Assembly: GCA_903881505.1 (NCBI GenBank)
Contig: CAIRTM010000084.1
Coordinates: 1-54,881 of the forward strand
Direction: 5' to 3'
DNA: 54,881 bases
DNA from: an uncultured delta proteobacterium
GTDB taxonomy: Bacteria > Desulfobacterota > WTBG01 > CAIYCZ01 > CAIRTM01
The position numbers were made by a program, and so were the translations under genes. Under the pieces are notes generated by a model. It had not been told where the DNA came from. It saw only the letters and a list, made by a program, of their open reading frames with translations, and did no database searches. Within the stretch, counting starts at the first letter, position 1; each line of letters starts with the position of its first letter. Positions 1 to 885 of the stretch are shown piece after piece.

Positions 1-885
1 GCGCTGCTGATCAAGAATGTGAAGGCTGGCTGAGGGTGCACGGCAGCGCTGGCTTCGGCCGGCGAGATTCCCCCGGGCGGGGAAGGAAAAATCACGGTAA
101 CCTTCAGGCCGGGCAGCCGCGACGGCGTGCAGAAAAAGACCATTCAGGTTGAGACCAACGATCCGGCAGCTGCGAACCTGGTGCTTGAGGTCAGCGCGCA
201 CGTTGAGGTGGCGCTGGCGATCAGCCCGGCGTCACTGGTGTTTCCGGACTTTGCCGCTTCAGCCGGCAGCGCGCAGCCGCTGTATGCGCGCATTACCGGC
301 AGCCAGAGCGCAACGGCGAAGATCACCGCGATTGAGTGCGCCAGCAGGCTGATCAACGTGGAGGTCAACCGGGAGGGTTTTGACGGTGATCCGGGCCGGC
401 AGGTAAAATTCAGCGTGCGGCCGGGCATGCCGGCCGGCCGGTTTCGCGAACGGGTTGTGTTCAAAACCGACAGCACAACGGCGCCCGAGTTGAGCCTGTC
501 CGTGACGGGCGAGGCGCTGGGGCCAATCAGCGTTACTCCGCGCCATCTCTCTCTTGGCACGATACAGCCGGGCGTTCCGGTGCGCAAAGTTATCCGGCTG
601 CAGTCGACACAGCCGGGCTATTCCTTCAGGGTCGTTGATGTCAAAAGCACGGGTGAAGGCATTACGGCTGAGCTGGTGACCCTTGCGCAGGGGAGCCGGT
701 ATGAGATCGCGGTCGGCCTTGCCGAAGGTTTTTCCGGGCCGGTGGTGCGCGGCGAGATCGTCATCACGACAGACGACAAGGACCAGGGCCCCATAACCGC
801 CAGGGTGTTCGGACGCATTGTGAAAATGCCCGTGCCTGGTCCCGTGCCCGAGGAGACTGTGCCGGGTGCTGATGATCCGGCCTGA
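1..885 (+). CDS. DUF1573 repeat protein, 3' part, candidate selenoprotein
   Basis: Read in frame from base 1, this is the C-terminal 294 residues of a protein that starts before the window. The first residues (LLIKNVKAG) lead into an in-frame TGA at 31-33, then GCTAALAS, IPPGGEGKITVTF and VQKKTIQVETNDP. That is the course of a DUF1573 domain, whose signature is a CGCT motif, and the TGA sits exactly where the first Cys of CGCT belongs. About 130 residues further on a second immunoglobulin-like domain follows (residues about 175-280) without a CGC motif. Without UGA recoding, translation could only restart at GTG 127, inside the domain. The protein is probably exported or cell-surface. A sequencing error or a true stop is the alternative to selenocysteine. 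LarE follows 62 nt downstream. Confidence 0.7.
31..64 (+). promoter_or_regulatory. Candidate UGA selenocysteine codon with downstream hairpin
   Basis: The TGA at 31-33 is followed by a 7-bp stem (47-53 pairing with 58-64) closed by a TTCG loop at 54-57. The loop begins 20 nt after the codon, within the range usual for bacterial SECIS elements. GGG at 34-36 could also pair with the C-run at 70-74 as a lower stem. The loop lacks the G in its first two positions that the standard bacterial model expects, so the hairpin is supportive rather than conclusive. Confidence 0.45.

Follow-up and report, generated by a model that had tools for sequence, protein, structure and literature searches.

A DUF1573 gene with UGA as a probable selenocysteine codon in a Desulfobacterota-type genome

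Introduction

The window studied here, a stretch of 54,881 nucleotides that makes up contig C84 of a genome of 3.16 Mb in 149 contigs, opens with a reading frame that carries a TGA codon inside a conserved domain and continues for hundreds of codons behind it. This raises the question whether the TGA is a real stop, an artefact or a codon for an amino acid, and if the last, for which one. A sequence-only reading had proposed selenocysteine (Sec) in a candidate new selenoprotein. Our analysis leads to the conclusion that the gene whose 3' part lies in the window encodes a selenoprotein of the known DUF1573/UGC family, that the genome is of the Desulfobacterota type (Thermodesulfobacteriota), and that Sec is incorporated at UGA 31-33 under the direction of SelB, a reading to which we assign a probability of about 0.96. 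The features of the locus are collected in Table 1.

Table 1. Features at the beginning of the window
Feature	Position	Strand	Basis
Probable DUF1573 selenoprotein gene, 3' part	1-885	+	294 codons with UGA as Sec; ordinary stop 883-885; synteny with G001:C29
141-base stretch, same as the ends of C109 and C40	1-141	.	Sequence identity; upstream sequences differ
DUF1573 (HYDIN/VesB-like Ig) domain, C-terminal two thirds	4-201	+	Profile match
UGA, putative selenocysteine codon, first position of UGC(T) motif	31-33	+	Frame-1 reading, alignment column
Putative SECIS hairpin, arms 47-53 / 58-64, UUCG loop 54-57	47-64	+	Folding and comparison; 20 nt after UGA
Second hairpin UUCCCC-CGGGC-GGGGAA, possible further SECIS part	68-84	+	Nearly frozen synonymous sites
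Two further predicted beta-sandwich domains of a three-domain exported protein	202-882	+	Alignment-based model of orthologue L143, homology

Results

Reading frame and contig end

Frame 1 translates as ALLIKNVKAGUGCTAALASAGEIPPGGEGKITVTF..., with the single TGA shown as U, and is closed by an ordinary TGA stop. Residues 2-67 of the read-through translation match PF07610 (2.2e-15) as well as HYDIN/VesB, a related family of Ig-like domains, so that DUF1573 does lie on both sides of the TGA as had been read from the window alone. The curated cut-off of PF07610 (26.1 bits) is passed by the truncated window protein with 56.9 bits and by the full-length orthologue with 95.8 bits. As a 252-residue frame opens at GTG 127, the product could instead be a short protein that starts after the TGA, with the upstream frame belonging to a separate or degenerate gene. 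However, such a start would fall in the middle of the DUF1573 domain, the Cys-type orthologues L029, L030 and L038 are single full-length proteins, and positions 31-126 are conserved both as protein and as RNA, which makes this alternative highly improbable.

The sequence-only reading had stated that without recoding the frame could only start mid-domain. GTG 127 does lie there, but the impression of a mid-domain start is explained by the position of the frame at the very beginning of a contig. Bases 1-141 recur without a difference at the ends of contigs C109 and C40 (the latter on the reverse strand), and on each of these contigs a 5' end of its own, with a signal-like N-terminus, runs in frame into the common KNVKAGUGCT. 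This identity looks like a k-mer overlap at a branch of the assembly graph, in sequence shared by two paralogues. G001, a congeneric genome, has both paralogues complete. On G001:C29 the paralogue is preceded by a ROK kinase gene, and the genes downstream are of the PP-loop/LarE-like and FMN-reductase types, an arrangement that matches C40 plus the window; the paralogue on G001:C1 corresponds to C109, and a glycogen phosphorylase-like gene comes after it. The ROK kinase and the FMN-reductase were named by Pfam search, and the names LarE and phosphorylase are what we take these neighbours to be from inspection of their sequences. Based on the synteny with G001:C29, we therefore place the 5' end of the window gene on C40 and regard C109 as the second paralogue.

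In the window's own genome the two paralogues have 42% identity over the 90 nt just upstream, yet share at least 141 identical bases; those of G001 are 90% identical over the corresponding stretch. The identical tract around the UGA in the paralogues (L002, L003) is a possible sign of recent gene conversion or strain mixing. Directly downstream of the window gene, at 948-1760, lies the PP-loop ATPase gene resembling LarE, in a neighbourhood conserved with G001. Among relatives the neighbour genes are partly conserved, with the FMN-reductase gene present in some and a small lipoprotein-like gene in others, and therefore no pathway can be named.

The TGA falls on a conserved Sec/Cys column

DUF1573 is present in all 11 genomes of the order, and apart from G008 each of them has one or more copies that contain a single TGA. 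A hand count of the 150 DUF1573 matches listed for 297 genomes of the phylum, the weakest matches being left out, gave 76 with exactly one TGA, distributed over 60 genomes, and none with TAA, TAG or two stops. For alignment, 60 further regions among the listed matches were fetched. Each of the 76 distinct TGA-type sequences has its TGA on the column of the first Cys of the CGC motif, and 26 other distinct sequences have TGC or TGT at this column. The alignment with homologues thus bears out the earlier placement of the TGA exactly on the first Cys. The second Cys of the motif is usually kept and is replaced in some branches (UGS, UGT, UGV); it is missing in this way from the UGA-type sequences L122, L123, L129, L133, L134, L136, L137, L139 and L140, and a Cys directly precedes Sec in L129, L134, L136, L137 and L139. 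TGA-type relatives also occur in MAGs labelled Acidobacteriota, CSSED10-310 and Gemmatimonadetes, although such labels can be wrong.

Viewed by itself, the window has at the contig end a frame that is truncated, as it might be in a pseudogene or through a sequencing error; the gene would then be broken, and its TGA either a genuine stop or artificial. The comparative data refute this: dozens of independent genomes, as well as two paralogues here, have this codon at the identical column, other stop codons are absent from the matches listed, and coding conservation runs for about 280 residues downstream. We consider the chance of a broken gene to be negligible.

Selenocysteine machinery

As the sequence-only reading had suggested, we searched the genome for selA, selB, selC and selD, and all were found: selB with 374 bits, selA with 562 bits, a tRNA-Sec with UCA anticodon, and selD. 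The selD gene carries its own in-frame TGA (L024:1525-1527), followed by a 7-bp SECIS-like stem with a GG-containing loop in exactly the same register as the hairpin of the window. No support was found for the proposal that UGA is read genome-wide as another amino acid (e.g. Trp, code 4/25). This proposal is contradicted by the dedicated Sec tRNA together with selA, selB and selD, by the presence of Cys and not Trp at the column in relatives, and by the TGA at 883-885 with which the window gene itself ends, and we give it next to no credence.

Genome G008, which belongs to the same family and is 97% complete, has two DUF1573 copies that are both Cys-type (L029, L038), and it yielded no selA match and no selB above the cut-off. 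Since selA was found in 269 of the 297 phylum genomes, it is too common for a co-occurrence test beyond this negative case. Four TGA-type genomes are among those in which selA was not found: G053, G092 and G181 had no match, and G280 is absent among the matches listed. In G092 and G181 selB is partial or fragmented. G053 (L091, L223) is a single-contig genome with a UGA-type DUF1573 gene, a full selB and no selA match.

A hairpin downstream of the UGA

The hairpin noted earlier, a 7-bp stem with a tetraloop at a SECIS-like distance, was recovered at 47-64, with six Watson-Crick pairs and one G-U pair. Folded alone, the window sequence was not more stable than shuffles (z 0.1 to 0.8), so that the hairpin becomes convincing only through comparison with relatives; an Rfam search gave no meaningful match. 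In 15 close TGA-type sequences, 98.5% of the cells of this hairpin and the one behind it were paired, with changes on both sides in 16 cells, and the pair at columns 18-33 was seen as C-G, U-A, G-C and G-U. The covariation score exceeded all 500 shuffles (0/500 as good) and all slid controls, and RNAalifold independently recovered the same two helices. When stability was compared with that of synonymous recodings, the region +13..+42 gave a mean z of -1.83 in TGA-type sequences (n=76) vs -0.59 in Cys-type sequences (n=26; p = 9e-7, a value that overstates the number of independent cases because the sequences compared are related). The control region +55..+99 showed no such difference. These comparisons indicate selection on the hairpin over and above the constraint of coding in TGA-type genes, and much less of it in Cys-type genes.

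The bacterial SECIS (bSECIS) model places the apical loop 16-37 nt after the UGA, with a loop of 3-9 nt, an upper stem of 4-16 bp, an MFE of at most -7.5 kcal/mol and a G in one of the first two positions of the apical loop, and some real elements fail the model (PMC13188914). The window hairpin has a spacing of 20 nt, a 4-nt loop, a 7-bp stem and -12.7 kcal/mol; its UUCG loop has no G in the first two positions. Among close relatives, the loop starts with G in L031, L033 and L043 and not in the others.

A second hairpin

Behind this element, codons +12 to +17 (ATT CCC CCG GGC GGG GAA) have 95% pairwise synonymous identity in 14 TGA-type sequences, vs 43% upstream and 42% further downstream, which we take as an effect of selection at the RNA level. 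All six pairs of the hairpin at 68-84 form in 20 of 71 TGA-type sequences vs none of 24 Cys-type sequences, and the region +37..+66 is somewhat more stable in the TGA-type genes (p = 0.007, again among related sequences). The distance from the UGA to the loop is 40 nt, which is more than the usual 16-37 nt; the loop carries the G that the first loop is without. An extended SECIS may be the most natural guess. That DUF1573 Sec insertion in this lineage uses a two-hairpin SECIS, and that the IPPGGEG peptide and its codons alike are frozen by selection on the RNA, is a tentative proposal that we hold at somewhat less than even odds.

Predicted architecture of the protein

Full-length relatives have about 350-430 residues. 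AlphaFold applied to the window protein alone gave a poor model (pLDDT 39.9). An alignment-based model of the G001 orthologue (L143) reached a mean pLDDT of 86.6. In this model a helix at the N-terminus precedes a series of beta strands, which we interpret as three beta-sandwich domains. The first of these is DUF1573, and U88-G89-C90 sits where one of its strands begins. A Foldseek search against the PDB returned only general Ig-like multidomain proteins, with ciliary central-pair proteins on top; this speaks for an Ig-like fold and says nothing about function.

Discussion

Taken together, the reading of UGA 31-33 as selenocysteine is strongly supported at the sequence level, because the genome contains the Sec machinery, the Sec/Cys column is kept in dozens of genomes and the SECIS hairpin covaries. 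According to the mechanism we propose, SelB would bring Sec-tRNA(UCA) to the UGA, guided by the hairpin at 47-64, and Sec would take the place held in relatives by the first Cys of CGC. The product would be a protein of about 370 residues, for which an export signal at the N-terminus and three beta-sandwich domains of the Ig-like type, with DUF1573 as the first, are predicted. Outside the cytoplasm, Sec and the second Cys (U-G-C) would probably be joined as a redox pair in a selenenylsulfide; the actual insertion of Sec, the export and the redox role are what we infer for this protein.

While the selenocysteine reading held up, the novelty suggested by the sequence-only reading did not. That reading had been made with no list of selenoproteins for comparison, and 'DUF1573 domain-containing protein' (pfam07610/PF07610, UGC) is tabulated among the bacterial selenoproteins by two reviews (PMC9312934, PMC13188914). 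The source that both reviews cite for the DUF1573/UGC entry is Zhang and Gladyshev 2007, a paper on the Olavius algarvensis Delta1 symbiont. A new selenoprotein family is refuted by these tables, which attribute the entry to the 2007 paper, and has hardly any probability left; that the gene joins the known DUF1573 selenoprotein family is well supported.

The locus adds a clear case to a family for which the two reviews give no more than a row in a table, with a single Sec motif. UGA-type DUF1573 genes occur in about 60 of the 297 phylum genomes among the matches listed, often in several copies, and gene callers that stop at UGA would shorten all of them. The second conserved hairpin raises the testable question of how far bacterial SECIS elements extend.

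Compared with known systems, the window hairpin agrees with the bSECIS consensus (PMC13188914) in stem length, loop size, spacing and stability, but differs in the lack of an early G in its loop and in the presence of a second conserved hairpin further downstream. Cys-type DUF1573 proteins (L029, L030, L038) are of the same length and have the CGC motif, with 37-41% identity to the orthologue over the full length for L030 and L038; they differ in that Cys replaces Sec and that selection for a hairpin behind the motif is slight or absent. With the DUF1573 selenoprotein of the Olavius algarvensis Delta1 symbiont, as far as the review-table entry describes it, the window gene has in common the domain, the UGC motif with Sec at the first Cys and a related bacterial group, whereas the organism is a different one and the protein encoded here is a predicted three-domain protein.
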